In this document: positions 13,650 through 36,158 of the stretch, piece after piece
Position numbering within the stretch: the first letter of the stretch is position 1
Layout: each line of letters opens with the position of its first letter
Origin: Schizochytrium sp. TIO01
Lineage: Eukaryota > Sar > Bigyra > Thraustochytrida > Thraustochytriidae
Assembly: GCA_004764695.1 (NCBI GenBank)
Contig: CM015709.1
Span: 1 to 41,662, forward strand
Direction of reading: 5' to 3'
DNA: 41,662 bases
Made by a program: the position numbers and the translations under genes
Notes under the pieces: generated by a model
Told to the model about the DNA's origin: nothing
Database searches by the model: none
The model's input: the letters and a program-made list of their open reading frames with translations, nothing else

Positions 13650-13694
13650 ACGAGGAAAAGGACTTGAACCTTTTTAATTAACCGAAACCCCCGT
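13650..13694 (-). ncRNA. tRNA-like element B (no anticodon arm) between rps4 and rps8
   Basis: A 45-nt tRNA-like fold. Acceptor ACGGGGG pairs over 7 bp with TCCTCGT (two G-U pairs). A 14-nt D-like loop containing GG (TTTCGGTTAATTAA) follows, then a T-arm AAAGG TTCAAGT CCTTT. There is no room for an anticodon arm. It fills most of the rps4-rps8 spacer, where other junctions have a tRNA. It resembles plant mitochondrial t-elements, which mark processing sites. Function is inferred, not shown. I looked for a normal tRNA with a 5' arm further upstream and found no matching acceptor strand. Confidence 0.6.
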
Positions 13695-13704
13695 AAACAC
13701 GTAG

Positions 13705-14202
13705 TTAGTAACAAACTACAAAACTGCGTGTACTAAAACTGATTTCCAAATTTTGGGGAATAATAGCTTGCAAAGCTACATTTTGATTTACGGTAGTAAA
13801 AAATGAACCATTAATAGTGATATTTCCCTGAATATGAACAAGATCTCCCGCTGACAAAATGAAATTTGGATTTTTTTGAACAATTCCATTTACGACTACT
13901 TTACTAGAACAAACAGCATGACGAGCTGCCAATAGTGAAGGATAGAAACGAGAACTCCAAATAAGAAAATCAAGCTTAAGTGGACTTGGAGAAGATGAAC
14001 CATAAGTGTACTTAACTTGTTTGCGCTGATTAAAAACATCTTTTTTAATTGCGTGCAAACGTACAAATGAAGAAACCCTATTTTTTTGAGCTTGTTTCAA
14101 AATGGAAACCCAAGTATTTTGCGGCTTACAACAATGAGCAACAAATTTTTGAGAATAGATAGGATTTATTTTTAGTTTTTTTAGTTGTTTAAACTTAAGC
14201 AT
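13705..14202 (-). CDS. rps4: Ribosomal protein S4
   Basis: Small-subunit primary binder, 165 aa from ATG at 14202 (MLKFKQLKKLKINP). This start lies 1 nt after the rps2 stop; a longer frame would overlap rps2. The S4 RNA-binding domain is clear: LDFLIWSSRFYPSLLAARHA followed by VCSSKVVVNGIVQKNPNFIL and SAGDLVHIQ. It is shorter than bacterial S4 (about 205 aa). A hairpin, GTAGTT/AACTAC with a 7-nt loop, covers its stop codon. Confidence 0.9.
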   Translation of the reverse strand: MLKFKQLKKLKINPIYSQKFVAHCCKPQNTWVSILKQAQKNRVSSFVRLHAIKKDVFNQRKQVKYTYGSSSPSPLKLDFLIWSSRFYPSLLAARHAVCSSKVVVNGIVQKNPNFILSAGDLVHIQGNITINGSFFTTVNQNVALQAIIPQNLEISFSTRSFVVCY

Positions 14203-14203
14203 T

Positions 14204-15214
14204 TTATTTTTTAAAAGATGTAAAAAAAAGAAATATAGAAAACCAAAGAGCTTTAATTTGACGAGGATCACAAAAAATAACGTAAGGCAAATAAAAAGAA
14301 TATTTCTTTAGAGAACTTTCGTTAGAAAAACAGATTACAGGAATCCCCTTTTTATTTGCTTCCAAAATAGCGACAAGATTTTTTTTAAAGCCCATAACGA
14401 TCAAAATATCAGGATAAAAAGATCGAGAATTTTTTTGAGAATTGGATAGAGTACCAGGAACCCATTTACTCAAAAAAGTAACGGATTCATTTTTAAACAT
14501 ATAAAAGAAGCGTGCTATTGATTTTGAATTCCCTACAATACAAAAAGAAACTTGACTTTTACGCAGATTGGTAATAAAGTAGAAAACTTTCATAAACGCT
14601 TGAGTTTGCTTAGAATAAAGCAAACCATACTTTGACAAAATAGAAGAAAAAAAGATTATTTTAACAGATTTCATAATAATAAATAATTTAGAACGTTTAC
14701 CTTCTTTTAGAGGCAACACAGAAACTTTGCTTATTATAAAACAACCCTTACCTTTATAAGGATCAGTTTGTTTTTGTTGGCAAATAAAAGAAACGAATTC
14801 TTTTAGAAGACTATAATTTATAGAATAGAAAAAAGCTTTAGTTTGGTCTTTACTAATTTCCACAACAATACCTTTAGGAATAGTAAACAAAACAGGGTGA
14901 CTAAGCCCAATGTTAATTTGGAAAGTATTTTGAGAAATTAGAGAACATTTGTAACCTACCCCTACTATAGAAAATTTTTCAGAAAAAACTTTATTAGATA
15001 TGAAAGAGATAATTTTAGATTGTAGGGACTTAAATTTAGTCAAAAATGAACGTTTCGAACACACAAATTGGATAGACGATGTTTCGTTAAATACCTGAAA
15101 AAAGAACTCTTTTTTAAACGCAAAGCTTTTATTATTAAATGAATCTGTAATAATATAAAAAGATTGATTTTCAGAGAAAGAGAATCCATCTTTTATAACC
15201 ACTGTAAAATACAT
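14204..15214 (-). CDS. rpl6-rps2: Fused ribosomal proteins L6 and S2 in one frame
   Basis: One uninterrupted 336-codon frame carries two ribosomal proteins. Residues 1-180 are L6: FSIVGVGYKCSL and the C-terminal QQKQTDPYKGKGCFI are typical. From about Met181 (ATG at 14674) the sequence is S2: KWVPGTLSNSQ matches the W..GTLTN motif, then FYPDILIVMGFKKNLVAILE and ANKKGIPVICF match the PD..iv....n..Ai.EA...gIPvI segment. No stop codon separates them. Either a fused protein is made and perhaps cleaved, or S2 starts internally at 14674. The S2 part (156 aa) is short. Order rpl6-rps2-rps4 is continuous with rps4 1 nt downstream. Confidence 0.85.
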   Translation of the reverse strand: MYFTVVIKDGFSFSENQSFYIITDSFNNKSFAFKKEFFFQVFNETSSIQFVCSKRSFLTKFKSLQSKIISFISNKVFSEKFSIVGVGYKCSLISQNTFQINIGLSHPVLFTIPKGIVVEISKDQTKAFFYSINYSLLKEFVSFICQQKQTDPYKGKGCFIISKVSVLPLKEGKRSKLFIIMKSVKIIFFSSILSKYGLLYSKQTQAFMKVFYFITNLRKSQVSFCIVGNSKSIARFFYMFKNESVTFLSKWVPGTLSNSQKNSRSFYPDILIVMGFKKNLVAILEANKKGIPVICFSNESSLKKYSFYLPYVIFCDPRQIKALWFSIFLFFTSFKK

Positions 15215-15228
15215 GATAAAAAGTTAAT

Positions 15229-15302
15229 GGCGGGAAGAAGGATTTGAACCTACGACATCTTGCACCACAAGCAAGCGTACTAACCACTGTACTATACCCA
15301 CC
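15229..15302 (-). tRNA. trnH: tRNA-His (GTG)
   Basis: Anticodon stem CTTGC/GCAAG with loop TTGTGGT (anticodon GTG). The extra 5' G (position -1) pairs with C73, the His identity mark, and is encoded in the DNA. T-loop TTCAAAT. The acceptor and T-stem each have one T-T mismatch. Confidence 0.92.
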
Positions 15303-15318
15303 TACATACAAAATGCTG

Positions 15319-15390
15319 CTGGGATAACAGGATTCGAACCTATATCTTTTAGTACCAAAAACTAAAGCTTTACCTTTAAGCTATATCCCA
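15319..15390 (-). tRNA. trnQ: tRNA-Gln (TTG)
   Basis: Acceptor TGGGATA/TATCCCA (perfect, with weak first pair as in many tRNA-Gln), anticodon stem TTAGT/ACTAA with loop TTTTGGT (anticodon TTG), T-loop TTCGAAT, discriminator G. Confidence 0.94.
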
Positions 15391-15406
15391 ACAATATAAA
15401 ACAAAA

Positions 15407-15493
15407 CGGAGAAGACTGGATTCGAACCAGCGACAAGTTTTAACCTGTAAACGTTTAGCAAACGTTCGCAATCGACCTCTCTGCCACTTCTCC
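15407..15493 (-). tRNA. trnS(gcu): tRNA-Ser (GCT)
   Basis: Class II tRNA with a long variable arm. Acceptor GGAGAAG/CTTCTCC, anticodon stem AACGT/ACGTT with loop TTGCTAA (anticodon GCT), T-arm CTGG TTCGAAT CCAG, discriminator G. First tRNA downstream of rrnS. Confidence 0.94.
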
Positions 15494-15535
15494 AAACTTT
15501 TTTTGATTCCCTGAGTAGTATTTAAAAAAGTAAAA

Positions 15536-15564
15536 GTATAAAGTTTCCGAATGTTTCTTTATAC
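15536..15564 (-). other. Hairpin between rrnS and trnS(gcu)
   Basis: Perfect 8-bp inverted repeat GTATAAAG/CTTTATAC with a 13-nt loop, in the roughly 100-nt spacer downstream of the rrnS 3' end. It could be an rRNA 3'-processing or attenuation signal; no T-run typical of a bacterial terminator follows directly. The rest of the spacer shows nothing recognisable. Confidence 0.4.
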
Positions 15565-15592
15565 AAAGATATTATAATTAAAATTTATTTAT

Positions 15593-16915
15593 AAATTCAG
15601 CCGCAAGTTCACTTACGGCTACCTTGTTACGACTTTATTACAGTCAGCTGCGTTATACTATAGGCTAAAACCATTTCATACAACGAAACCTCCCATAACA
15701 TGACGGGCGGTATGTACAAAGCTAGGTAAAAAATTTCACCGTGGCGTGCTGATCCACGATTACTGGCAACTCCAACTTCATAAAAGTGAGTTTCAACTTT
15801 TAATCCGAACTACGGTAATGGTTAAAAGGATTGCTTTAAATTTCTTTATTGCTTCTTTTTGAATTTACCATTGTAGCACGTTTACAGCCCAAAGCATAAG
15901 GGTCATGAAGATTTGTCTTAGTCTTAAATTTCAAACTGATTATCTCAGCTGATTTAAAGATGAAAAAACATCTTTAAAAAAAGGTTTCGCTCGTTTAAGG
16001 ACTAAACCATACATTTCAAAACACGAGCTGAAGACAACCATGCAACACCTGTTAAAAAGATTCCTGTCAAGCTTTGGTAAGATTACTCGCGTATTGTCGA
16101 ATTAAGTAACATGCTCCGCTGCCTATACTAGCTCCCGTCAATTCTTTTGGATTTCACCGTTGCCGGGGTACTCTCCAGGCAGTTTATTTAGCGTTAGCTT
16201 ATTTAGTGAAAATCTCCGAAGAGTAATTTCACTAAACAATAAACATCGTTTACGGCGCAGACTACAAGGGTCTCTAATCCTTTTTGCTACCTGCGCTTTC
16301 GTTTCTCAGTGTCAGGTTTTCGTAGAAAATTGTCTTCACAAAAAAGTCCTTTTGATATCAACCGATTTTACCCGTACTTCAAAAATTCTATTTTCTTCTC
16401 AGAACCTCTAGATATAACGTATTATTTCAAAATTAAAGTTTAATTAAAATTTAGAAAATAACAAAAATAACCACCTACAAACGTTTTACGCCTAATGTAT
16501 AGATAACGTAAGCCCTTCACGTATTACCGCGACTGCTGGCACGCATATTGGTCAGGACTAAGAAATAAGTTTATATCATTATTTAAACTTATTACTAAAC
16601 TTTACAACAAAATTGCCTTCTTCATTTTGTGAAATTGCTAGGTCAAGCTTTCGCTCATTGCCTAAGATTCTTCACTGCTGCCTCTACGTAGAGTATGGCC
16701 CTTTTTTCAGTGCCATTGTGGCGGATCTTTCTTTCGAAACCGCTTAAAGTCATAGGCTAGGTCAGTCTATTAAACGACCTACTACCTTGCTTTCCGAAAA
16801 GCTTCTCTTTTTCAAGATAAATACTTAACAAACTCACCCGTACGCTTTTCAACTCGCATGTGTAAAACATTTCACTAACGTTCATCCTAAGCCAAGATCA
16901 AACTTACATAAAAAT
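15593..16915 (-). rRNA. rrnS: Small-subunit (16S-like) ribosomal RNA
   Basis: About 1.32 kb. The 5' end carries GTTTGATCTTGGCTTAGGAT (start of SSU rRNA) near 16905. The plus strand shows the complement of the 1392 region (GACGGGCGGTATGTACAAA) at 15702, and the 3' end has AAGTCGTAACAAGGTAGCCG. The 530-loop and 900-region complements are also visible (for example CCGCGACTGCTGGCACG near 16526). Ends are set by homology and are accurate to perhaps 10-20 nt. Transcribed after rrnL, with only a short AT-rich spacer between them. Confidence 0.95.
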
Positions 16916-16964
16916 ATTAAATAGTATTTAATAAATACTAAAAAAATGTAAACTATATAATAAA

Positions 16965-19430
16965 ATAAAAAATAAAATTAGTATCACTAAGCTAAAAACA
17001 CACGTGACCTATCAAAGAGATGTTCTTTCACTTTGTTTAGAAAGATAACAAAAAGATTTCTTGCTTTAGATGCTTTCAGCAATTATTCTGAACTATCGTT
17101 ACTACCCTGCGATGCCATTAGACAACAGGTTCATAAGAGGATAGTGCTTAACGGTCCTCTCGTACTAGTTAAACATTTTGTTTACTTTCAATAAATTCTA
17201 AAAGATAGGGACCAAACTGCTTCACAGCGTTCTAAACCCAACTCACGTAACGCTTTAATCGGCGAACAGCCAAACCCTTGAAACCGGCTTCAGCTTCAGG
17301 TTGCGTTGAGTCGACATCGAGGTGCCAAACGTTCTTTTAGATATGAGCTCTTGAAGAACATTAGCCTGTTATCCCCGGAGTACTTTTTATTCGTTAAGCG
17401 ATGTCTTGTCCATTAAAAAACACCGGATCACTACGGCCGGCTTTTAAACCCCTGTGCGAGATGTACCTCTTACAGTCAAGCAAGTTTTTATTGCCGTTAC
17501 ACTGCTTACTTTTTTAAAGTATAACTTGCCTTTGCACTCCTTTGTTACTTTTTAAAAGGAATCCGCCCCAGATAAACTGCCTTCCTTATACGGTCTTTTA
17601 TTAAAAAAATGAGTCTAGGTAGACTAAAGAGTGGACTTTCACTTATGTAATTAAACTACCACTTCCAGTGTACAATAGAAAACCTTGAACAATATAAAGA
17701 TACAGTAAAAGTTCACGGGGTCTTTCCGTCTTTTTAGAATACGCTCGCTTCTTCACGAGCAAATAAATTTCACAGAGATTATTTAAGAGACAGTGAAACA
17801 GTCATTACTCCATTCATGCGGGATCATAATTAGTGACCAATGAATTTCGCTACCTTAGGACAGTCAGAGTTACTGCCGCCGTTTACTGGTTCTTAGTTTT
17901 ATAGCAAATACTATAAAAGTTAAAATAACAGCACCGGGCAGGAGTCAGTCCTTATACTACCACTTACGTGTTTGCAAAGACCTGTGTTTTTAGTAAACAG
18001 TTGCTATTTCCGTTTTTTTGCAACTTTCTCTTTAATCAAGAAAGCGCCTCTTCTCCCGAAGTTACGAGGCCAATTTGCCGAGTTCCTTTTAAATAAATAT
18101 CTCTACGTCTTAGCATAACTATGCTACCTCACCTGTGTCGGTTTAAGTACGGTAAACCTTATATAATTTTCTAGATTACTTTTTTTCATTAGATATATAA
18201 AACCCATCATAATAACTTTTCAGCTAATTAATTAGGGACCGAATAACCCTAAACTGAACAACATTTGTTTAGGAAACCTGGAGGATTCAGACGACACTCA
18301 TTCACAGAGTGTTTTCCGTTACTCATACTGAAATAATCAAATTGATAAACACACACATTTTACAACGTATGCTAACTTATACAAAAAGCTTTGCTACCCA
18401 GAGCTTTTAAGCTCTGTTTCCGCTTCGGCTGTTTTTTTAGTCTCCTACATTTTCAGAACCTATACCCTTAGTTAATGAGCTACTACGCTTTCTTTCAATG
18501 ATGGCTGCTTCCAAGCCTACATATTAACTGTCATTGGATATAAACTCTTTTTGCACTTAAAAAACATTAAAGGCCTTAGCGATAAATCTGGGCTGTTTCC
18601 CTCTCAACAAAAGACCTTATCGCCTATTGTTTGTTTATTAAATATTCTTAAAAAAGGTATTCGTAGTTTGCAAAGAGTTAGTAAGTGACACCCCCTTCCC
18701 TAAACAGAGCTCTACCCCCTTTTTTAGTATTTAACACTCTACCTAAATAGATTTCGCAAAGAACCAGCTATTTCCAAGTTTGATTAGCCTTTCACTCCTA
18801 TTCACAAATCATCCCAATCTTTTGCAACAGATACGGGTTCAGCCGAATGCAAATATACATCCGCTAGTTCATAAATAGATCACTTGGTTTCGGGTATAAT
18901 AAAAGTAACATAATATTGAATTTTTGCTTTCACGTACGCCTACATGTCTCCACTTAAGCTGGGCTACTTTTATTAACTCTTCAGTTCGTAATACAAAAAG
19001 CACGCTATAATAGCTTTAAACTACTCTAGCATAAAAAGCAGTTTGATTTCACTCTTTCCTTTACAGTACTTGTGCGCTATCGGTTAATGTTAAGTTAAGC
19101 TTTAGAAGATGGTTCTCCTATTTTCAGTAAAGATAACATGTCTCAACTTACTAATGTATAAGAAATTTTTACAAAATACAGGACTTAAATACCTTCTATG
19201 GTTTTAAAATTTTTTGCAAAAAATCCTTAAGCTTAAATTGATTTCGCTCGCCACTACTTTCAACTCCTTGTTTAATTTTTTAACTTGCTACTAAGATGTT
19301 TCAATTCGCAAGGTTATAAATAAAATAAATTAATGGTTTTCCTAGAGGAATCTAACCGAAATAGGTTAGCTTATCGCATATAAAAACGCCTCTATATTAA
19401 CATTACCTAGAGATCCTTCAAATGCCATAA
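16965..19430 (-). rRNA. rrnL: Large-subunit (23S-like) ribosomal RNA
   Basis: About 2.47 kb, continuous, no intron. Visible landmarks on the minus strand: domain I GAATTGAAACATCTTAGTAG and AGTAGTGGCGAGCGAAA near the 5' end, peptidyl-transferase region sequences in the middle, and the sarcin-ricin loop AGTACGAGAGGACC at about 17152-17165. The 3' end follows TTGATAGGTCACGTGTGT and an AGCTTAGTGATACTAAT helix strand. The 5' end near 19420-19430 directly follows trnG. End positions are approximate. No separate 5S rRNA gene was recognised. Confidence 0.95.
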
Positions 19431-19435
19431 ATAAA

Positions 19436-19507
19436 AACGGATGAAGGGACTTGAACCCTCATAATTAGCTTGGAAGGCTAAAGTGTTAACCTTTACACCA
19501 CATCCGC
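19436..19507 (-). tRNA. trnG: tRNA-Gly (TCC)
   Basis: Acceptor GCGGATG/CATCCGT, D-stem GTGT/ACAC, anticodon stem TTAGC/GCTAA with loop CTTCCAA (anticodon TCC), T-loop TTCAAGT. Its first 22 nt also encode the last codons and stop of nad7 in the available frame. Confidence 0.93.
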
Positions 19508-20715
19508 AAAGCTGACCTAAATAAACGATCAACTTCTCCAAAAACAATATCTTGAGTACCAATAATGGTAACTACATCAGCAATTAGATGTCCTTTTGCT
19601 ATTATGTCTAGCCCTTGCAAATGAGCAAATCCGGGCGCTTTTATTTTACAACGATAAGGTTTTGAAGATCCGTCAGAAACAAGAAATACACCGAATTCTC
19701 CTTTAGGGGCTTCAGTCGCTATATAAATTTCACCTGCGGGAACTGAAAAACCTTCAGAGAAGTATTTAAAGTGTTGAATAGTAGCTTCCATAGAATGTTT
19801 CAATTCTTTACGAGAAGGGGCAGACACTTTGTGGTCTACTTTAACAGAACCTTGTGGAAGATTATTCAAACACTGAACGATGATTGACAAAGATTCTCGC
19901 ATCTCAGCTACTCGAACAAGGTAACGGTCATAGCAATCTCCGTTTGTACCTACAGGAACCGAAAAATCGAGTTCATCATAGATTTCATAAGGAGTGTTTT
20001 TACGCAAATCCCAACAAACTCCGCTACCTCGAAGCATAACACCACTAAACCCCCAAGAAGCAGCATCTTTTATGGTAACAACTCCCACATCAACTAGACG
20101 TTGTTTCCAAATACGGTTTTCGGTTAGCAACTCTTCAAATTCATCTAGACGAACCCGAAAAGCTTCACAAAAACTATAAATATCTGCTGACAAGCCTATA
20201 GGAATGTCGTAAGCAACCCCTCCGGGACGTACATAAGCAGCGTGCATTCGAGCACCAGAAACACGCTCATAAAACTCTATAAGTTTTTCCCGTTCTTCGA
20301 ATCCCCAAAAAAAAGCGGTCATAGCCCCAACGTCAAGCGCGTGGCAACTAATAAATAGCAAATGATTCAATAGACGAGTGATTTCCAAAAAGATAACCCT
20401 AATATACATAGAACGTTTAGGTACTTGAATATTCATCAATGATTCAACTGCTATAGAATAAGTGTGTTCTTGGGCCATCATAGAAACATAGTCCAGCCTA
20501 TCGAAATAAGGCAATGCTTGCATATAATTCTTATGTTCAACCAATTTTTCAGTACCTCGATGCAAAAGACCAATGTGAGGATCTGCACGAAGAACATTTT
20601 CTCCTTGCAAGTCCAAAACAAGACGCAAAACCCCGTGAGCAGCGGGATGTTGAGGACCAAAGTTTAGAGTAAAATTCTTTAGCTCTTTATTTATTTTTCG
20701 TTTTGTAAGTGCCAT
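19486..20715 (-). CDS. nad7: NADH dehydrogenase subunit 7 (49 kDa)
   Basis: Peripheral-arm subunit at the quinone site (NuoD), 409 aa. N-terminal [38 protein letters not shown] and the C-terminal [10 protein letters not shown] are hallmarks. The family usually ends at GEVDR; here about 12 extra residues follow and the stop (TAA, 19486-19488) lies 22 nt inside trnG. Cutting at trnG would leave a transcript ending in TT, with no stop. The mature end therefore needs checking. ATG at 20715; upstream lies tRNA-like element C. Confidence 0.95.
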
Positions 20716-20729
20716 AATAAATTCAGTAA

Positions 20730-20779
20730 AGTGGCAAAGGGAATTGAACCCCTATTTATATAATACTACGAGTACCACT
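20730..20779 (-). ncRNA. tRNA-like element C (no anticodon arm) between rpl16 and nad7
   Basis: A 50-nt fold. Acceptor AGTGGTA pairs with TGCCACT over 7 bp (one G-U), a 19-nt D-like stretch CTCGTAGTATTATATAAAT follows, then T-arm AGGGG TTCAATT CCCTT. There is no anticodon arm. The middle resembles that of the repeat-borne element (CTTTGGTATATGTATATAAA). It fills the only spacer between the ribosomal-protein cluster and nad7, a junction without a tRNA. Position and structure suggest an RNA-processing signal. Confidence 0.6.
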
Positions 20780-20798
20780 AAGAGGGTAAAAATAACAC

Positions 20799-21242
20799 TT
20801 AATATAAGAATGAGGCTGGAAAATTACGTTTTACAACTTTTACTGAACAGGGAAATTTTTTAGATATAGAATTAAAAGCATCTACTACGATAGTTTCAGA
20901 AACCCCAGAAATAGAAAAGATAACAGAACCAGGAGACACTTTAGCTTTCCAAATGGAGATAGCACCCTTACCTTTACCCATTCGAGCACCAATACTTTTA
21001 GACGTAAAAGGTTTATCAGGAAATACGTGCAAACGAAGAATTCCTTTACGAACTAGCTTTTTCTTGATTAGCTTAATAGCTACGCTAAGATGATTATTCG
21101 TAACGTAACAAGATTCAGTTGAAATCAAAGTAAAAGAAGGCAAATTTGTAGCAAGTAGATCTTGAATACCCGGTGAAGAACACTTAAGACGACCTCGCTG
21201 ATACTTTGCAAATTTTATACGTTTAGGACGAAGTGAACACAT
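20799..21242 (-). CDS. rpl16: Ribosomal protein L16
   Basis: Large-subunit protein near the A-site tRNA, 147 aa. Begins with the usual PKRIKFAKYQRGR region; later LRLHVFPDKPFTSKSIGARM then GKGKGAISIWKAKVSPGSVI fit the conserved MGKGKG...W...V..G.I motif. ATG at 21242 lies 5 nt after the rps3 stop, keeping the bacterial S10-operon order rpl2-rps19-rps3-rpl16. Confidence 0.95.
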   Translation of the reverse strand: MCSLRPKRIKFAKYQRGRLKCSSPGIQDLLATNLPSFTLISTESCYVTNNHLSVAIKLIKKKLVRKGILRLHVFPDKPFTSKSIGARMGKGKGAISIWKAKVSPGSVIFSISGVSETIVVDAFNSISKKFPCSVKVVKRNFPASFLY

Positions 21243-21247
21243 TTTAA

Positions 21248-22092: not shown

Positions 22093-22105
22093 TTGAAAAT
22101 TTGAT

Positions 22106-23504: not shown

Positions 23505-24850
23505 CCACAAATAGAATTGAATACAAAATACGTATAATAACGATTACTGTAATAAACCAAGCTAACACAAAGGCTAGCCTTGGCTTTCACACACAAGACA
23601 CCCGTAAGGAATTTCATTTAAATGGCATATAATTAGTTTAGATAGATACTCCTTTAAGGCTATCCAACAACAACCTGTTCGATTAATTTGAAACCATCAT
23701 AACTTTCACCCGTCTCTACTCTAACGAAGTATAAATTCGTAGTATAATTCCAGACATACATATAAAGCTGCGCACGAAACTCCACTCAGCTAGCTGCGCA
23801 TTACTAACCAAGCTTTATTTCACTTTATAATGCATACCTTTCTTTTTACCACTCTTTTAAACTCCCTTTTCATAAATACCAAGATTACTAATTAATTAGA
23901 ATTAACAAAATCAATCTAATAAAGCTGCGTCTTCCAACACATAAACTTTCTCTAAACAAAACCGCATAAAATAACCAAAAAAACTACATCCCAAACAGGA
24001 CTCGATACCGTATGGTACTCTTGTCGCTCACAAAGTGAACAACTCACGTAGATAGATCGCCCTATCCGACATCACAAACAAGTAAAAACAACCCTCATAC
24101 AAGCTGCTCCCCTCCTTTTGCTAGAATTCTCCATATAATAAAAGTTACTCTCCTACAAGCATACCGGTGACTACTACATCACACACTCCTCTCCAACTAC
24201 CATGAACTTCTTGACACCCCAACCTTGCAATCCACTTGCCTAGAAAGAATTAGGACAAGCGTCTCGCTCTAGATATAATATAACTCGCGTACCCTCGCGA
24301 CGACTTTCTCAAACTTTCATTCAATAGGTCTAATCCGCATACGAAAATACTACGAATTGGCTAGCAAAGCAGACTTCGTTTCATCACTTTGCCTCGCACT
24401 TGAATTCCATGCCTCAAACAACACTTCCTCCCATACGAGTATGCCAGCTAAGTTATTTCATTCGATCTCACTGCCTTATTAGGGCAAGTGCACTGACACC
24501 ACTCCGGTTCCCCATTACTAGCAAGGAGATATGATCCTTGCCGCAATTCGATAGCATTGAATAAACTACTACCTCTCTAACTACTGCGCGCATTGGCGTG
24601 GGCCACCCTATCTTCATCTTCGTTAGAAATTTTTTTTTAAATCTTTGCTGGTTTTAGGTCTTGTTAAGCCTTATTATAAAGAGTTTATACACTAGTTCAC
24701 TTGAGAAACGCAATACCAACGCATAAGCTGAGAACCTATGCGGCAATCCTTCCTTTTTTCGCGCTTACCATAATGATACCTTCTCATTCAATTAAATTAC
24801 TTATGGTAAACTTTTTCAGCTAAAAAGGCTATTTTAGAAAAACTAGATAC
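23505..24850 (-). other. Non-coding region upstream of tatC
   Basis: About 1.35 kb with no frame I can recognise and no tRNA on either strand. It is less AT-rich than the genes. The minus strand is G-rich and C-poor over much of it. Small inverted repeats occur, for example CCAAGCTA/TAGC-CTTGG (one bulge) at about 23558-23582 and CAAGGA/TCCTTG at about 24521-24540; the octamer GCTGCGCA occurs twice near 23768 and 23792. This region lies immediately 5' of all genes on the coding strand, so it is a reasonable place for a promoter or replication start, but I cannot identify a motif. Confidence 0.5.
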
Positions 24851-25003
24851 TGAAGCCCAGGGGAAGTCGAACCCCCGCTTATGCATCTGAACCTGTTTGA
24901 ACAGTCCAGTAGCGGTCCCAGCTGTATTCTATTACAAGACACTCTCCTCCGTAGCGGCGTGATCTTGCTCTATGTCGAGAATAGTGGGCGAACCTTCGGC
25001 TTC
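24851..25003 (-). ncRNA. Structured RNA closed by a tRNA-like acceptor and T-arm; possible reduced tmRNA
   Basis: A 153-nt segment whose ends pair: GAAGCC at the 5' end with GGCTTC at the 3' end, followed by A. Directly before the 3' strand is a T-arm, GGGGG TTCGACT TCCCC (last pair G-U). After the 5' strand comes GAAGGTTCGCC, resembling the GGxTTCGAC D-loop of tmRNA. Inside, CCCA/TGGG, TATTCT/AGAATA and GACA/TGTC can stack as one interrupted helix. This is the layout of a tmRNA tRNA-like domain. Mitochondrial tmRNAs without an mRNA-like part are known in jakobids and oomycetes. Against it: no G3-U70 pair, and about 40 nt lie between the helix and the T-arm. Confidence 0.4.
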
Positions 25004-25075
25004 TGGAATTAATTATATTACTAATTAAGACGAATATTTATTAAAAACGAATAAGAGGCATTTTACTTTGCCTCA

Positions 25076-25125
25076 GGGTAGAACGGGAATCGAACCCGTT
25101 TTATATACATATACCAAAGCTACCC
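25076..25125 (-). ncRNA. tRNA-like element A, copy 1 (left border of repeats)
   Basis: A 50-nt fold: GGGTAG/CTACCC acceptor, D-like stretch CTTTGGTATATGTATATAAA with GG, and a T-arm ACGGG TTCGATT CCCGT, stacking to 12 bp as in a normal tRNA. No anticodon arm. It stands 5 nt from the first 101-bp unit. Nine further copies lie in the repeats (one in each 345-bp spacer, one at the right border). Confidence 0.6.
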
Positions 25126-25130
25126 ACATT

Positions 25131-28100
25131 AAAACTGGAAGGAGGGGCCAAAGTCCGAAAATCCTCCTTCTATAAGCATGGAGCTAGCCCAAAAACTTCA
25201 AGAACCTCGTGCACGGACCTCCGGTAACAGTAAAACTGGAAGGAGGGGCCAAAGTCCGAAAATCCTCCTTCTATAAGCATGGAGCTAGCCCAAAAACTTC
25301 AAGAACCTCGTGCACGGACCTCCGGTAACAGTAAAACTGGAAGGAGGGGCCAAAGTCCGAAAATCCTCCTTCTATAAGCATGGAGCTAGCCCAAAAACTT
25401 CAAGAACCTCGTGCACGGACCTCCGGTAACAGTAAAACTGGAAGGAGGGGCCAAAGTCCGAAAATCCTCCTTCTATAAGCATGGAGCTAGCCCAAAAACT
25501 TCAAGAACCTCGTGCACGGACCTCCGGTAACAGTAAAACTGGAAGGAGGGGCCAAAGTCCGAAAATCCTCCTTCTATAAGCATGGAGCTAGCCCAAAAAC
25601 TTCAAGAACCTCGTGCACGGACCTCCGGTAACAGTAAAACTGGAAGGAGGGGCCAAAGTCCGAAAATCCTCCTTCTATAAGCATGGAGCTAGCCCAAAAA
25701 CTTCAAGAACCTCGTGCACGGACCTCCGGTAACAGTAAAACTGGAAGGAGGGGCCAAAGTCCGAAAATCCTCCTTCTATAAGCATGGAGCTAGCCCAAAA
25801 ACTTCAAGAACCTCGTGCACGGACCTCCGGTAACAGTAAAACTGGAAGGAGGGGCCAAAGTCCGAAAATCCTCCTTCTATAAGCATGGAGCTAGCCCAAA
25901 AACTTCAAGAACCTCGTGCACGGACCTCCGGTAACAGTAAAACTGGAAGGAGGGGCCAAAGTCCGAAAATCCTCCTTCTATAAGCATGGAGCTAGCCCAA
26001 AAACTTCAAGAACCTCGTGCACGGACCTCCGGTAACAGTAAAACTGGAAGGAGGGGCCAAAGTCCGAAAATCCTCCTTCTATAAGCATGGAGCTAGCCCA
26101 AAAACTTCAAGAACCTCGTGCACGGACCTCCGGTAACAGTAAAACTGGAAGGAGGGGCCAAAGTCCGAAAATCCTCCTTCTATAAGCATGGAGCTAGCCC
26201 AAAAACTTCAAGAACCTCGTGCACGGACCTCCGGTAACAGTAAAACTGGAAGGAGGGGCCAAAGTCCGAAAATCCTCCTTCTATAAGCATGGAGCTAGCC
26301 CAAAAACTTCAAGAACCTCGTGCACGGACCTCCGGTAACAGTAAAACTGGAAGGAGGGGCCAAAGTCCGAAAATCCTCCTTCTATAAGCATGGAGCTAGC
26401 CCAAAAACTTCAAGAACCTCGTGCACGGACCTCCGGTAACAGTAAAACTGGAAGGAGGGGCCAAAGTCCGAAAATCCTCCTTCTATAAGCATGGAGCTAG
26501 CCCAAAAACTTCAAGAACCTCGTGCACGGACCTCCGGTAACAGTAAAACTGGAAGGAGGGGCCAAAGTCCGAAAATCCTCCTTCTATAAGCATGGAGCTA
26601 GCCCAAAAACTTCAAGAACCTCGTGCACGGACCTCCGGTAACAGTAAAACTGGAAGGAGGGGCCAAAGTCCGAAAATCCTCCTTCTATAAGCATGGAGCT
26701 AGCCCAAAAACTTCAAGAACCTCGTGCACGGACCTCCGGTAACAGTAAAACTGGAAGGAGGGGCCAAAGTCCGAAAATCCTCCTTCTATAAGCATGGAGC
26801 TAGCCCAAAAACTTCAAGAACCTCGTGCACGGACCTCCGGTAACAGTAAAACTGGAAGGAGGGGCCAAAGTCCGAAAATCCTCCTTCTATAAGCATGGAG
26901 CTAGCCCAAAAACTTCAAGAACCTCGTGCACGGACCTCCGGTAACAGTAAAACTGGAAGGAGGGGCCAAAGTCCGAAAATCCTCCTTCTATAAGCATGGA
27001 GCTAGCCCAAAAACTTCAAGAACCTCGTGCACGGACCTCCGGTAACAGTAAAACTGGAAGGAGGGGCCAAAGTCCGAAAATCCTCCTTCTATAAGCATGG
27101 AGCTAGCCCAAAAACTTCAAGAACCTCGTGCACGGACCTCCGGTAACAGTAAAACTGGAAGGAGGGGCCAAAGTCCGAAAATCCTCCTTCTATAAGCATG
27201 GAGCTAGCCCAAAAACTTCAAGAACCTCGTGCACGGACCTCCGGTAACAGTAAAACTGGAAGGAGGGGCCAAAGTCCGAAAATCCTCCTTCTATAAGCAT
27301 GGAGCTAGCCCAAAAACTTCAAGAACCTCGTGCACGGACCTCCGGTAACAGTAAAACTGGAAGGAGGGGCCAAAGTCCGAAAATCCTCCTTCTATAAGCA
27401 TGGAGCTAGCCCAAAAACTTCAAGAACCTCGTGCACGGACCTCCGGTAACAGTAAAACTGGAAGGAGGGGCCAAAGTCCGAAAATCCTCCTTCTATAAGC
27501 ATGGAGCTAGCCCAAAAACTTCAAGAACCTCGTGCACGGACCTCCGGTAACAGTAAAACTGGAAGGAGGGGCCAAAGTCCGAAAATCCTCCTTCTATAAG
27601 CATGGAGCTAGCCCAAAAACTTCAAGAACCTCGTGCACGGACCTCCGGTAACAGTAAAACTGGAAGGAGGGGCCAAAGTCCGAAAATCCTCCTTCTATAA
27701 GCATGGAGCTAGCCCAAAAACTTCAAGAACCTCGTGCACGGACCTCCGGTAACAGTAAAACTGGAAGGAGGGGCCAAAGTCCGAAAATCCTCCTTCTATA
27801 AGCATGGAGCTAGCCCAAAAACTTCAAGAACCTCGTGCACGGACCTCCGGTAACAGTAAAACTGGAAGGAGGGGCCAAAGTCCGAAAATCCTCCTTCTAT
27901 AAGCATGGAGCTAGCCCAAAAACTTCAAGAACCTCGTGCACGGACCTCCGGTAACAGTAAAACTGGAAGGAGGGGCCAAAGTCCGAAAATCCTCCTTCTA
28001 TAAGCATGGAGCTAGCCCAAAAACTTCAAGAACCTCGTGCACGGACCTCCGGTAACAGTAAAACTGGAAGGAGGGGCCAAAGTCCGAAAATCCTCCTTCT

Positions 28101-29253
28101 ATAAGCATGGAGCTAGCCCAAAAACTTCAAGAACCTCGTGCACGGACCTCCGGTAACAGTAAAACTGGAAGGAGGGGCCAAAGTCCGAAAATCCTCCTTC
28201 TATAAGCATGGAGCTAGCCCAAAAACTTCAAGAACCTCGTGCACGGACCTCCGGTAACAGTAAAACTGGAAGGAGGGGCCAAAGTCCGAAAATCCTCCTT
28301 CTATAAGCATGGAGCTAGCCCAAAAACTTCAAGAACCTCGTGCACGGACCTCCGGTAACAGTAAAACTGGAAGGAGGGGCCAAAGTCCGAAAATCCTCCT
28401 TCTATAAGCATGGAGCTAGCCCAAAAACTTCAAGAACCTCGTGCACGGACCTCCGGTAACAGTAAAACTGGAAGGAGGGGCCAAAGTCCGAAAATCCTCC
28501 TTCTATAAGCATGGAGCTAGCCCAAAAACTTCAAGAACCTCGTGCACGGACCTCCGGTAACAGTAAAACTGGAAGGAGGGGCCAAAGTCCGAAAATCCTC
28601 CTTCTATAAGCATGGAGCTAGCCCAAAAACTTCAAGAACCTCGTGCACGGACCTCCGGTAACAGTAAAACTGGAAGGAGGGGCCAAAGTCCGAAAATCCT
28701 CCTTCTATAAGCATGGAGCTAGCCCAAAAACTTCAAGAACCTCGTGCACGGACCTCCGGTAACAGTAAAACTGGAAGGAGGGGCCAAAGTCCGAAAATCC
28801 TCCTTCTATAAGCATGGAGCTAGCCCAAAAACTTCAAGAACCTCGTGCACGGACCTCCGGTAACAGTAAAACTGGAAGGAGGGGCCAAAGTCCGAAAATC
28901 CTCCTTCTATAAGCATGGAGCTAGCCCAAAAACTTCAAGAACCTCGTGCACGGACCTCCGGTAACAGTAAAACTGGAAGGAGGGGCCAAAGTCCGAAAAT
29001 CCTCCTTCTATAAGCATGGAGCTAGCCCAAAAACTTCAAGAACCTCGTGCACGGACCTCCGGTAACAGTAAAACTGGAAGGAGGGGCCAAAGTCCGAAAA
29101 TCCTCCTTCTATAAGCATGGAGCTAGCCCAAAAACTTCAAGAACCTCGTGCACGGACCTCCGGTAACAGTAAAACTGGAAGGAGGGGCCAAAGTCCGAAA
29201 ATCCTCCTTCTATAAGCATGGAGCTAGCCCAAAAACTTCAAGAACCTCGTGCA
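25131..29253. repeat. Tandem array of 41 units of 101 bp
   Basis: Units start every 101 bp from 25131; 40 are complete and the last is cut after 83 bp. I see no differences between units on reading, so the array is strongly homogenised. Each unit contains an 8-bp hairpin stem GAAGGAGG/CCTCCTTC, the palindrome CGTGCACG and GCTAGC. 101 is not a multiple of three, and no reading frame stays open. It is not CRISPR: there are no unique spacers. The function is unknown; such repeats are common in diatom mitochondrial genomes. The copy number may depend on assembly. Confidence 0.97.
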
Positions 29254-29351
29254 ACCTAAATTTTATCATTTAAACATATTATTAATCTCTGAATAGGTAT
29301 ATTATTTACATATTCTTCCCCAAACTTCCAAACCCTACTTTCTGTGCGCAA

Positions 29352-29399
29352 CCTCTACACCTCCTCCTCCGTGAACCTGCGTCAGAGGAGGTGTAGAGG
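29352..29399. repeat. 15-bp perfect hairpin in the 345-bp spacer (representative copy)
   Basis: CCTCTACACCTCCTC pairs perfectly with GAGGAGGTGTAGAGG around an 18-nt loop. The same element occurs in all eight spacers, at spacer start +98 to +145. It is the strongest inverted repeat I found in the window. Candidate roles are replication start, recombination site or transcript end; none is shown by the sequence. Confidence 0.8.
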
Positions 29400-29543
29400 A
29401 TAGCTAGAAAGGAGGTACAGTGTCTAAAATGGAAATTAACTCTAGCGTCATCGATATTAACCCCATTTAAACACTTATTCTCTGTAATAGTTAGCTTCTC
29501 ACACTAAGATAGAACAAATAAGAGGCATTTTTACCCTGCCTCA

Positions 29544-29593
29544 GGGTAGAACAGGAATCGAACCCGTTTTATATACATATACCAAAGCTACCC
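29544..29593 (-). ncRNA. tRNA-like element A, spacer copy (representative of eight)
   Basis: Same fold as copy 1 with one base change in the T-stem, giving ACGGG TTCGATT CCTGT: a G-C pair has become G-U, so the stem is kept. The eight spacer copies look identical to each other. Each lies 5 nt before the first 101-bp unit of its block. Confidence 0.55.
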
Positions 29594-32500
29594 ACATAAA
29601 AATTGGAAGGAGGGGCCAAAGTCCGAAAATCCTCCTTCTATAAGCATGGAGCTAGCTCCAAAACTTCAAGAACCTCGTGCACGGACCTCCTATAACAGTA
29701 AAACTGGAAGGAGGGGCCAAAGTCCGAAAATCCTCCTTCTATAAGCATGGAGCTAGCCCAAAAACTTCAAGAACCTCGTGCACGGACCTCCGGTAACAGT
29801 AAAACTGGAAGGAGGGGCCAAAGTCCGAAAATCCTCCTTCTATAAGCATGGAGCTAGCCCAAAAACTTCAAGAACCTCGTGCACGGACCTCCGGTAACAG
29901 TAAAACTGGAAGGAGGGGCCAAAGTCCGAAAATCCTCCTTCTATAAGCATGGAGCTAACCCAAAAACTTCAAGAACCTCGTGCACGGACCTCCGGTAACA
30001 GTAAAACTGGAAGGAGGGGCCAAAGTCCGAAAATCCTCCTTCTATAAGCATGGAGCTAGCCCAAAAACTTCAAGAACCTCGTGCACGGACCTCCTATAAC
30101 AGTAAAACTGGAAGGAGGGGCCAAAGTCCGAAAATCCTCCTTCTATAAGCATGGAGCTAGCCCAAAAACTTCAAGAACCTCGTGCACGGACCTCCGGTAA
30201 CAGTAAAACTGGAAGGAGGGGCCAAAGTCCGAAAATCCTCCTTCTATAAGCATGGAGCTAGCCCAAAAACTTCAAGAACCTCGTGCAACCTAAATTTTAT
30301 CATTTAAACATATTATTAATCTCTGAATAGGTATATTATTTACATATTCTTCCCCAAACTTCCAAACCCTACTTTCTGTGCGCAACCTCTACACCTCCTC
30401 CTCCGTGAACCTGCGTCAGAGGAGGTGTAGAGGATAGCTAGAAAGGAGGTACAGTGTCTAAAATGGAAATTAACTCTAGCGTCATCGATATTAACCCCAT
30501 TTAAACACTTATTCTCTGTAATAGTTAGCTTCTCACACTAAGATAGAACAAATAAGAGGCATTTTTACCCTGCCTCAGGGTAGAACAGGAATCGAACCCG
30601 TTTTATATACATATACCAAAGCTACCCACATAAAAATTGGAAGGAGGGGCCAAAGTCCGAAAATCCTCCTTCTATAAGCATGGAGCTAGCTCCAAAACTT
30701 CAAGAACCTCGTGCACGGACCTCCTATAACAGTAAAACTGGAAGGAGGGGCCAAAGTCCGAAAATCCTCCTTCTATAAGCATGGAGCTAGCCCAAAAACT
30801 TCAAGAACCTCGTGCACGGACCTCCGGTAACAGTAAAACTGGAAGGAGGGGCCAAAGTCCGAAAATCCTCCTTCTATAAGCATGGAGCTAGCCCAAAAAC
30901 TTCAAGAACCTCGTGCACGGACCTCCGGTAACAGTAAAACTGGAAGGAGGGGCCAAAGTCCGAAAATCCTCCTTCTATAAGCATGGAGCTAGCCCAAAAA
31001 CTTCAAGAACCTCGTGCACGGACCTCCGGTAACAGTAAAACTGGAAGGAGGGGCCAAAGTCCGAAAATCCTCCTTCTATAAGCATGGAGCTAACCCAAAA
31101 ACTTCAAGAACCTCGTGCACGGACCTCCGGTAACAGTAAAACTGGAAGGAGGGGCCAAAGTCCGAAAATCCTCCTTCTATAAGCATGGAGCTAGCCCAAA
31201 AACTTCAAGAACCTCGTGCACGGACCTCCTATAACAGTAAAACTGGAAGGAGGGGCCAAAGTCCGAAAATCCTCCTTCTATAAGCATGGAGCTAGCCCAA
31301 AAACTTCAAGAACCTCGTGCACGGACCTCCGGTAACAGTAAAACTGGAAGGAGGGGCCAAAGTCCGAAAATCCTCCTTCTATAAGCATGGAGCTAGCCCA
31401 AAAACTTCAAGAACCTCGTGCAACCTAAATTTTATCATTTAAACATATTATTAATCTCTGAATAGGTATATTATTTACATATTCTTCCCCAAACTTCCAA
31501 ACCCTACTTTCTGTGCGCAACCTCTACACCTCCTCCTCCGTGAACCTGCGTCAGAGGAGGTGTAGAGGATAGCTAGAAAGGAGGTACAGTGTCTAAAATG
31601 GAAATTAACTCTAGCGTCATCGATATTAACCCCATTTAAACACTTATTCTCTGTAATAGTTAGCTTCTCACACTAAGATAGAACAAATAAGAGGCATTTT
31701 TACCCTGCCTCAGGGTAGAACAGGAATCGAACCCGTTTTATATACATATACCAAAGCTACCCACATAAAAATTGGAAGGAGGGGCCAAAGTCCGAAAATC
31801 CTCCTTCTATAAGCATGGAGCTAGCTCCAAAACTTCAAGAACCTCGTGCACGGACCTCCTATAACAGTAAAACTGGAAGGAGGGGCCAAAGTCCGAAAAT
31901 CCTCCTTCTATAAGCATGGAGCTAGCCCAAAAACTTCAAGAACCTCGTGCACGGACCTCCGGTAACAGTAAAACTGGAAGGAGGGGCCAAAGTCCGAAAA
32001 TCCTCCTTCTATAAGCATGGAGCTAGCCCAAAAACTTCAAGAACCTCGTGCACGGACCTCCGGTAACAGTAAAACTGGAAGGAGGGGCCAAAGTCCGAAA
32101 ATCCTCCTTCTATAAGCATGGAGCTAGCCCAAAAACTTCAAGAACCTCGTGCAACCTAAATTTTATCATTTAAACATATTATTAATCTCTGAATAGGTAT
32201 ATTATTTACATATTCTTCCCCAAACTTCCAAACCCTACTTTCTGTGCGCAACCTCTACACCTCCTCCTCCGTGAACCTGCGTCAGAGGAGGTGTAGAGGA
32301 TAGCTAGAAAGGAGGTACAGTGTCTAAAATGGAAATTAACTCTAGCGTCATCGATATTAACCCCATTTAAACACTTATTCTCTGTAATAGTTAGCTTCTC
32401 ACACTAAGATAGAACAAATAAGAGGCATTTTTACCCTGCCTCAGGGTAGAACAGGAATCGAACCCGTTTTATATACATATACCAAAGCTACCCACATAAA

Positions 32501-35500
32501 AATTGGAAGGAGGGGCCAAAGTCCGAAAATCCTCCTTCTATAAGCATGGAGCTAGCTCCAAAACTTCAAGAACCTCGTGCACGGACCTCCTATAACAGTA
32601 AAACTGGAAGGAGGGGCCAAAGTCCGAAAATCCTCCTTCTATAAGCATGGAGCTAGCCCAAAAACTTCAAGAACCTCGTGCACGGACCTCCGGTAACAGT
32701 AAAACTGGAAGGAGGGGCCAAAGTCCGAAAATCCTCCTTCTATAAGCATGGAGCTAGCCCAAAAACTTCAAGAACCTCGTGCACGGACCTCCGGTAACAG
32801 TAAAACTGGAAGGAGGGGCCAAAGTCCGAAAATCCTCCTTCTATAAGCATGGAGCTAGCCCAAAAACTTCAAGAACCTCGTGCACGGACCTCCGGTAACA
32901 GTAAAACTGGAAGGAGGGGCCAAAGTCCGAAAATCCTCCTTCTATAAGCATGGAGCTAGCCCAAAAACTTCAAGAACCTCGTGCACGGACCTCCGGTAAC
33001 AGTAAAACTGGAAGGAGGGGCCAAAGTCCGAAAATCCTCCTTCTATAAGCATGGAGCTAGCCCAAAAACTTCAAGAACCTCGTGCAACCTAAATTTTATC
33101 ATTTAAACATATTATTAATCTCTGAATAGGTATATTATTTACATATTCTTCCCCAAACTTCCAAACCCTACTTTCTGTGCGCAACCTCTACACCTCCTCC
33201 TCCGTGAACCTGCGTCAGAGGAGGTGTAGAGGATAGCTAGAAAGGAGGTACAGTGTCTAAAATGGAAATTAACTCTAGCGTCATCGATATTAACCCCATT
33301 TAAACACTTATTCTCTGTAATAGTTAGCTTCTCACACTAAGATAGAACAAATAAGAGGCATTTTTACCCTGCCTCAGGGTAGAACAGGAATCGAACCCGT
33401 TTTATATACATATACCAAAGCTACCCACATAAAAATTGGAAGGAGGGGCCAAAGTCCGAAAATCCTCCTTCTATAAGCATGGAGCTAGCTCCAAAACTTC
33501 AAGAACCTCGTGCACGGACCTCCTATAACAGTAAAACTGGAAGGAGGGGCCAAAGTCCGAAAATCCTCCTTCTATAAGCATGGAGCTAGCCCAAAAACTT
33601 CAAGAACCTCGTGCACGGACCTCCGGTAACAGTAAAACTGGAAGGAGGGGCCAAAGTCCGAAAATCCTCCTTCTATAAGCATGGAGCTAGCCCAAAAACT
33701 TCAAGAACCTCGTGCACGGACCTCCGGTAACAGTAAAACTGGAAGGAGGGGCCAAAGTCCGAAAATCCTCCTTCTATAAGCATGGAGCTAACCCAAAAAC
33801 TTCAAGAACCTCGTGCACGGACCTCCGGTAACAGTAAAACTGGAAGGAGGGGCCAAAGTCCGAAAATCCTCCTTTTATAAGCATGGAGCTAGCCCAAAAA
33901 CTTCAAGAACCTCGTGCAACCTAAATTTTATCATTTAAACATATTATTAATCTCTGAATAGGTATATTATTTACATATTCTTCCCCAAACTTCCAAACCC
34001 TACTTTCTGTGCGCAACCTCTACACCTCCTCCTCCGTGAACCTGCGTCAGAGGAGGTGTAGAGGATAGCTAGAAAGGAGGTACAGTGTCTAAAATGGAAA
34101 TTAACTCTAGCGTCATCGATATTAACCCCATTTAAACACTTATTCTCTGTAATAGTTAGCTTCTCACACTAAGATAGAACAAATAAGAGGCATTTTTACC
34201 CTGCCTCAGGGTAGAACAGGAATCGAACCCGTTTTATATACATATACCAAAGCTACCCACATAAAAATTGGAAGGAGGGGCCAAAGTCCGAAAATCCTCC
34301 TTCTATAAGCATGGAGCTAGCTCCAAAACTTCAAGAACCTCGTGCACGGACCTCCTATAACAGTAAAACTGGAAGGAGGGGCCAAAGTCCGAAAATCCTC
34401 CTTCTATAAGCATGGAGCTAGCCCAAAAACTTCAAGAACCTCGTGCACGGACCTCCGGTAACAGTAAAACTGGAAGGAGGGGCCAAAGTCCGAAAATCCT
34501 CCTTCTATAAGCATGGAGCTAGCCCAAAAACTTCAAGAACCTCGTGCACGGACCTCCGGTAACAGTAAAACTGGAAGGAGGGGCCAAAGTCCGAAAATCC
34601 TCCTTCTATAAGCATGGAGCTAGCCCAAAAACTTCAAGAACCTCGTGCACGGACCTCCGGTAACAGTAAAACTGGAAGGAGGGGCCAAAGTCCGAAAATC
34701 CTCCTTCTATAAGCATGGAGCTAGCCCAAAAACTTCAAGAACCTCGTGCACGGACCTCCGGTAACAGTAAAACTGGAAGGAGGGGCCAAAGTCCGAAAAT
34801 CCTCCTTCTATAAGCATGGAGCTAGCCCAAAAACTTCAAGAACCTCGTGCAACCTAAATTTTATCATTTAAACATATTATTAATCTCTGAATAGGTATAT
34901 TATTTACATATTCTTCCCCAAACTTCCAAACCCTACTTTCTGTGCGCAACCTCTACACCTCCTCCTCCGTGAACCTGCGTCAGAGGAGGTGTAGAGGATA
35001 GCTAGAAAGGAGGTACAGTGTCTAAAATGGAAATTAACTCTAGCGTCATCGATATTAACCCCATTTAAACACTTATTCTCTGTAATAGTTAGCTTCTCAC
35101 ACTAAGATAGAACAAATAAGAGGCATTTTTACCCTGCCTCAGGGTAGAACAGGAATCGAACCCGTTTTATATACATATACCAAAGCTACCCACATAAAAA
35201 TTGGAAGGAGGGGCCAAAGTCCGAAAATCCTCCTTCTATAAGCATGGAGCTAGCTCCAAAACTTCAAGAACCTCGTGCACGGACCTCCTATAACAGTAAA
35301 ACTGGAAGGAGGGGCCAAAGTCCGAAAATCCTCCTTCTATAAGCATGGAGCTAGCCCAAAAACTTCAAGAACCTCGTGCACGGACCTCCGGTAACAGTAA
35401 AACTGGAAGGAGGGGCCAAAGTCCGAAAATCCTCCTTCTATAAGCATGGAGCTAGCCCAAAAACTTCAAGAACCTCGTGCACGGACCTCCGGTAACAGTA

Positions 35501-36010
35501 AAACTGGAAGGAGGGGCCAAAGTCCGAAAATCCTCCTTCTATAAGCATGGAGCTAGCCCAAAAACTTCAAGAACCTCGTGCAACCTAAATTTTATCATTT
35601 AAACATATTATTAATCTCTGAATAGGTATATTATTTACATATTCTTCCCCAAACTTCCAAACCCTACTTTCTGTGCGCAACCTCTACACCTCCTCCTCCG
35701 TGAACCTGCGTCAGAGGAGGTGTAGAGGATAGCTAGAAAGGAGGTACAGTGTCTAAAATGGAAATTAACTCTAGCGTCATCGATATTAACCCCATTTAAA
35801 CACTTATTCTCTGTAATAGTTAGCTTCTCACACTAAGATAGAACAAATAAGAGGCATTTTTACCCTGCCTCAGGGTAGAACAGGAATCGAACCCGTTTTA
35901 TATACATATACCAAAGCTACCCACATAAAAATTGAAAGGAGGGGCCAAAGTTCGAAAATCCTCCTTCTATAAGCATGGAGCTAGCTCCAAAACTTCAAGA
36001 ACCTCGTGCA

Positions 36011-36158
36011 ACCTAAATTTTATCATTTAAACACTTATTCTCTGTAATAGTTAGCTTCTCACACTAAGATAGAACAAATAAGAGGCATTTTTACCCTGCC
36101 TCAGGGTAGAATGGGAATTGAACCCATTTTATATACTTATACCAAAGCTACCCAAAAC
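36011..36158. repeat. Truncated ninth spacer at the right edge of the repeats
   Basis: It matches the 345-bp spacer but lacks 197 bp, including the 15-bp hairpin. The breakpoint falls on the 10-mer CATTTAAACA, which occurs at both ends of the missing part in the full spacer (29267-29276 and 29464-29473 in the first), so it looks like a deletion by slippage or recombination. It keeps its tRNA-like element, with compensated changes. No 101-bp unit follows it. Confidence 0.85.
36104..36153 (-). ncRNA. tRNA-like element A, last copy (right border of repeats)
   Basis: Acceptor GGGTAG/CTACCC unchanged; T-arm now ATGGG TTCAATT CCCAT. Compared with copy 1 a C-G pair has become T-A by two changes on opposite strands of the stem, and the T-loop purine has changed G to A within the TTCRA rule. 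The D-like stem is CTT/AAG. Conserved pairing despite base change suggests selection for the fold. It follows trnC by about 48 nt in the transcript direction. Confidence 0.65.

Follow-up and report, generated by a model that had tools for sequence, protein, structure and literature searches.

In animal mitochondria, cleavage by RNase P and RNase Z at transfer RNAs (tRNAs) is the established punctuation model. Other tRNA-like structures include mascRNA/menRNA (RF01684), which are the tRNA-like 3′ parts of MALAT1 and MEN beta, and transfer-messenger RNA (tmRNA), in which a tRNA-like domain lacks an anticodon arm and carries the Ala identity pair G3-U70. In plant mitochondria, t-elements are homologues of tRNA genes with a typical tRNA-like structure, which are cut by RNase P and RNase Z at messenger RNA (mRNA) ends and are not charged (PMC11658184); charophytes may also possess t-elements (PMC8003010). 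Described here are three types of tRNA-like element, 45–50 nt long and designated A (ten copies), B and C, that were found in a 41,662-nt stretch of DNA from Schizochytrium sp. TIO01 (contig CM015709.1), the whole of which is referred to as the window. The elements are probably minimal tRNA mimics that serve as processing signals within a one-strand mitochondrial precursor. This interpretation is supported in part, well for B and C and more weakly for A. A literature search in which subscription journals were partly covered returned no report of such elements in stramenopiles, and their absence from the literature is unproven.

The comparison with plant mitochondrial t-elements (wheat; Arabidopsis cox1, ccmC and others), which had been drawn in a preliminary description of this DNA, is apt. 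All three types have the tRNA-like acceptor/T-arm fold, B and C are located at mRNA borders (A is not), the proposed cutting enzymes are RNase P (PRORP) and RNase Z, and no role in translation is expected. Unlike plant t-elements, A, B and C are 45–50 nt in length, contain neither anticodon arm nor D-stem, have no clear tRNA parent and sit in a compact stramenopile mitochondrial DNA (mtDNA). Provided that the processing model given below is right, the elements work like t-elements. The mascRNA/menRNA pair also combines an acceptor and T-arm with a degenerate middle and is cut by RNase P/RNase Z and not aminoacylated, but these RNAs derive from animal nuclear long non-coding RNAs and have a longer middle part, and the resemblance to A, B and C may not reflect homology. 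With animal mitochondrial punctuation the elements share the role of marks between genes on a polycistronic precursor, and in this mtDNA start codons follow the tRNAs closely (10–21 nt); the difference is that the marks A, B and C are non-tRNAs, unable to decode. Minimal mitochondrial tRNAs of mites and nematodes show similarly extreme shortening, but in them it is the D- or T-arm that is missing and the anticodon arm that is retained, whereas A, B and C retain the T-arm and lack the anticodon arm.

The window, one complete contig of a 64-Mb eukaryotic assembly, corresponds to an entire mtDNA of a thraustochytrid, a marine protist resembling fungi; the molecule is circular because nad3 spans both contig ends. 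Its genes comprise 21 tRNAs, both ribosomal RNAs (rRNAs) and a complete complement of respiratory and ribosomal proteins, all encoded on the − strand.

Design of elements A, B and C

All three element types are on the coding (−) strand, like the tRNAs, both rRNAs and the assigned genes, and follow a common order: acceptor, three to four pyrimidines, GG (A and B) or GTAG (C), an A+T-rich stretch, and T-arm. In every type the minimum free energy (MFE) fold is exactly the acceptor/T-arm stack, with 12 bp in total (7 + 5 bp in B and C, 6 + 6 bp in A) and a 7-nt TTCRA loop. The 7-nt acceptor strand and the 5-bp T-stem are separated by only 14 nt (B) or 19 nt (A and C), which are single-stranded in the MFE fold, and an anticodon arm therefore cannot fit. 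N73 is U (T after the acceptor) in each type. The preliminary description was accurate in reporting three 45–50-nt types with a shared acceptor/T-arm design, including their sequences and coordinates, and in noting the lack of space for an anticodon arm and the T after the acceptor. It had also described a D-like stretch rich in TATA; the GG/GTAG part of this was confirmed, while B is not TATA-rich (linker TTAATTAA) and no D-stem is formed. Folding z-scores of single elements are modest (−1.2 to −2.0), and the evidence is the tRNA-specific arrangement and position, rather than raw stability.

Each of the ten copies of A is 50 nt long. Four positions distinguish copy A1 from copy A10: both bases of a T-stem pair (C-G in A1, U-A in A10, a compensated change), a T-loop base and a linker base; all 12 pairs are left intact. 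In the eight inner copies, the only difference from A1 is a G-C pair turned into G-U. When changes were simulated at random, all pairs were kept together with at least one compensated pair in approximately 1% of cases (p about 0.01).

Covariance models and tRNA prediction were applied to the elements. None of A, B and C was called as a tRNA by ARAGORN. With RF00005 (gathering threshold 29 bits), C scored 15.6 bits, below threshold, and no match was listed for A10 or B at E values up to 5. With RF01684, C scored 19.3 bits (E 0.066), and the gathering threshold of 42.5 bits was not reached. The tmRNA model gave only a 17-nt local match to A10 (10.2 bits); this weak match, and a third acceptor pair that is G-C in A and B and T-A in C, with no G3-U70, led to rejection of a tmRNA identity. 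Hidden full tRNAs at A, B and C were rejected on the basis of insufficient space and scores below the tRNA cut-off. By the models tested, the elements are neither tRNAs nor mascRNA nor tmRNA.

Placement at gene borders and proposed processing

Open reading frames (ORFs) were re-read under NCBI table 23, the thraustochytrid mitochondrial code, in which TTA is a stop. In the window, TTA is absent within assigned genes, yet terminates many reading frames, and so acts as a stop; Leu is served by tRNAs with CAA and UAG, and a UAA tRNA is missing. An algal source (cryptophyte or ochrophyte) was discarded once TTA proved absent from gene interiors, and a search for rbcL, made to test such an origin, found no match. 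Protein-gene junctions that contain no tRNA have a gap of at most 27 nt or an overlap, except rps4-rps8 (68 nt) and rpl16-nad7 (89 nt), and B and C occupy exactly these two. B lies 10 nt past rps4 and 13 nt ahead of the rps8 ATG, and C lies 25 nt past the rpl16 stop (TTA) and 14 nt ahead of the nad7 ATG, compared with 10–21 nt (median 12.5) for the leaders that follow twelve genuine tRNAs. All three element types and 16 of the 19 tRNAs scored have U at N-1, where the background frequency of T is 0.40. Because of the gap filling, the leader lengths and N-1 = U, B and C resemble neighboring tRNAs to the processing machinery. Since they fill the only two sizeable protein-gene gaps without a real tRNA, they are most likely minimal t-element-like processing signals, i.e., marks at which the transcript is to be cut. 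Element A is less certain as a processing signal.

The gene layout suggests that the single coding strand is transcribed as a long precursor, within which A, B and C would be included. Nearly everything that tRNA end-processing enzymes read is present: the 12-bp acceptor/T-arm stack, the canonical T-loop and, in A and B, a GG that may pair with the T-loop as an elbow. The anticodon arm, required by translation, is gone, and nothing that serves decoding is left. Release of the element would take a 5′ cut by RNase P, here probably a PRORP targeted to mitochondria, and a 3′ cut by RNase Z. Cleavage at B would part the rps4 transcript from rps8-nad2, cleavage at C would part the rpl16 transcript from nad7, and the downstream mRNAs would begin 13–14 nt before the ATG, like mRNAs after real tRNAs. 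In a less certain part of the model, cleavage at A would split a non-coding repeat transcript and isolate it from trnC and tatC.

For the enzymes, the nuclear genome contains one PRORP gene (E 3e-21) and several RNase Z-like genes. The PRORP protein has an N-terminal stretch enriched in Arg, Ala, Leu and Ser, of a type seen in mitochondrial presequences, and this composition suggests mitochondrial targeting. No RNase P RNA was detected in the window at the Rfam cut-off. In stramenopiles, PRORP is taken as the replacement of RNA-based RNase P (PMC10941002). AtPRORP1 cuts acceptor-T-stem hairpins at the right site, but slowly, and its efficient cleavage survives deletion of the anticodon stem-loop (PMC4975455). 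ELAC2 clamps the acceptor/T-arm minihelix (PMC11996679).

Several observations weigh against processing at these elements. The missing D-stem (all three types) and the missing GG (C) are the weak points of the model; with AtPRORP1, removal of the D-loop abolished cleavage in one cited assay, and substrates consisting only of a hairpin were cut ~1000 times more slowly (PMC4975455). Given the gap sizes, a 10–14-nt leader has a chance probability of ~0.21 for B and 0.125 for C, and position alone is therefore only moderately telling. The claim that the elements are placed where tRNA punctuation is missing holds for B and C, as the occupants of the only two tRNA-free protein-gene gaps longer than 27 nt, and does not hold as a general rule: ~17 other tRNA-free protein-gene junctions, with short gaps or overlaps only, and the gap between the large- and small-subunit rRNAs (50 nt) have no element, and A is at no mRNA border (A10 follows trnC, A1 is 1571 nt before tatC, and eight copies are inside the repeat). 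The tRNA-free junctions without an element must be handled otherwise or remain polycistronic. Finally, no close mtDNA relative for assessing conservation was found using cox1, nad7, cob, nad5 and nad1 (viral contigs) or cox1 (genome contigs), the matches being to bacterial-type contigs or to distant, partly mitochondrial ones.

There is about an even chance that the mitochondria of one stramenopile lineage independently evolved 45–50-nt RNase P/RNase Z tags, consisting of the stack and a short linker, that replace tRNAs as dedicated punctuation. If confirmed, the elements would be natural substrates showing the minimum tRNA part needed for end processing, in what is probably a protein-only RNase P mitochondrion, and would explain how messages are cut in a compact one-strand mtDNA where a tRNA is missing. 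If true, t-element-like processing would extend beyond plants and a natural minimal PRORP substrate would be defined.

Alternative origins and roles

Compatible with the mimic model is an origin by loss from tRNA genes, in which the translating part disappeared once tRNA import had taken over and the inherited processing function was retained, a possibility that falls slightly short of an even chance. Neither trnR nor trnT was found in the window. Arg and Thr tRNAs are presumably imported, since CGN, AGR and ACN codons are used despite the lack of a corresponding gene. Reduction followed by retention would unite the missing trnR and trnT with the kept 12-bp stack and N-1 = U, and homology to tRNA genes has been described for the t-elements of plants (PMC11658184). 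Alignment of the elements with the 21 resident tRNAs gave p values of 0.03 to 0.6 and no clear parent; with no parent identified, this origin is indistinguishable here from a mimic built anew.

Element A alone (B and C excluded) might be a replication, transcription-start or recombination part, with the tRNA-like fold used as a primer or stop signal. All ten copies are in the 11-kb non-coding repeat region, each is followed by a fixed GAGGCA...TGCCTC hairpin and no protein gene adjoins them, which favors such a role. It is nevertheless unlikely, as A matches the mRNA-border elements B and C in design, strand, N-1 = U and T-loop, and no sign of an origin or promoter was seen here.

Recent decay, by which A, B and C would be degraded, functionless relics of lost tRNA genes, would account for the lack of Arg and Thr tRNAs while both codon sets are used, for the placement of the elements between genes as tRNA genes are, and for the weak best match of B to trnI (p 0.03, uncorrected for multiple testing). 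Decay would, however, strike all arms alike, and yet every type retains 12/12 stack pairs despite having lost its D-stem and entire anticodon arm; the difference between A1 and A10 is compensated, and the elements have no clear parent tRNA. Simple decay is accordingly improbable.

Both strands were scanned for a pattern consisting of an acceptor of 7 nt with 6 or more pairs, a free gap of 8–70 nt and a 5-bp T-stem with a TTCRA loop. Apart from A, B and C, the only matches were tRNA genes, covering most of the 21, and there were none on the + strand of the window. The unique non-tRNA sequence (29 kb) contained 4 matches on the − strand and 0 on the +, and three of the four were different types. 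In 200 dinucleotide shuffles of this 29 kb, the mean was 0.1 matches and the maximum 2, counting both strands, and 4.28 Mb of other DNA contained 19 matches, at least one of them within a real tRNA. That AT-rich spacers fold this way by accident is very improbable, and a chance origin was rejected on the basis of the shuffles and the strand bias: the folding z-scores of the elements are modest and the scan pattern was fixed only after the elements had been pointed out, but three independent types on the coding strand and none on the other compare with ~0.1 expected over both, the T-arm consensus is an outside criterion, and the positions and the N-1 base fit those of tRNAs.

Feature coordinates and the surrounding mtDNA

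Table 1. Coordinates of the elements, the repeat region and the genes next to B and C in the window.
Feature	Coordinates	Strand	Description
Element B	13650..13694	-	45 nt; acceptor ACGGGGG/TCCTCGT (7 bp, two G-U)
Element B linker	within 13650..13694	-	TTTCGGTTAATTAA (14 nt)
Element B T-arm	within 13650..13694	-	AAAGG TTCAAGT CCTTT; N-1 = U, N73 = U
Element C	20730..20779	-	50 nt; acceptor AGTGGTA/TGCCACT (7 bp, one G-U); linker 19 nt
Element C T-arm	within 20730..20779	-	AGGGG TTCAATT CCCTT; N-1 = U, N73 = U
Element A1	25076..25125	-	downstream border of repeat region, 1571 nt before tatC; T-stem pairs all Watson-Crick
Element A2	29544..29593	-	
Element A3	30578..30627	-	
Element A4	31713..31762	-	
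Element A5	32444..32493	-	
Element A6	33377..33426	-	
Element A7	34209..34258	-	
Element A8	35142..35191	-	
Element A9	35873..35922	-	T-stem G-U variant; A2-A9 identical
Element A10	36104..36153	-	upstream border of repeat region, 48 nt after trnC; loop TTCAATT
Repeat region	25054..36153	-	A copies, each followed by a GAGGCA...TGCCTC hairpin, alternating with runs of the 101-nt unit
rps8	13262..13636	-	first gene after B; Pfam PF00410, table-23 ORF
rps4	13705..14202	-	last gene before B; Pfam S4 domain
nad7	19522..20715	-	first gene after C; Pfam PF00346; TTA stop
rpl16	20805..21242	-	last gene before C; Pfam PF00252; TTA stop

A 101-nt unit occurs 82 times in the ~10.9 kb of repeats at positions 25126–36100, where its runs comprise between 1 and 41 units and have A and a non-repeated spacer between them. 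The GAGGCA-loop-TGCCTC hairpin begins one base past every A copy (25054–25075 at A1); at A1 the loop differs and the stem is kept.

For Schizochytrium sp. TIO1101, a short-read mtDNA of 31,494 bp has been published (PMC7799850). It agrees with the window in the lengths of rps19 (165 bp) and nad5 (1968 bp), which are identical, and in the tRNA count of 21, and the two differ in total length by roughly the extent of the repeat region. The source of the window is therefore probably a thraustochytrid belonging to that species or close to it. Because the published mtDNA is a short-read assembly, the repeat region may be missing or collapsed in it. A second mtDNA contig of the assembly analyzed here (C15, 71.7 kb) runs around this mtDNA twice with an overlap, each turn being ~0.5 kb shorter. 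In C15, B, C and nine A copies are identical to those in the window and the A1 region is mostly N; the contig therefore provides no extra sequence variation. Since its turns are shorter and its repeat region is partly N, the assembled length of the repeat array is uncertain.

The 1.5-kb spacer before tatC was searched for tmRNA or another known RNA, and none was found. At 24850–24885 (−), this spacer contains a T-arm-like hairpin, GGGGGTTCGACTTCCCC, with no Rfam match and no matching acceptor at tRNA distance. Ahead of rps4, a long frame at 14204–15214 (−) was resolved into two table-23 genes, one resembling rpl6 (176 aa) and the other an rps2 with an S2 domain (156 aa). A 44-residue ORF between cox2 and trnW (8726–8860, −) resembles TatA, with a hydrophobic helix and an FG motif, and TatC is also encoded by this mtDNA.

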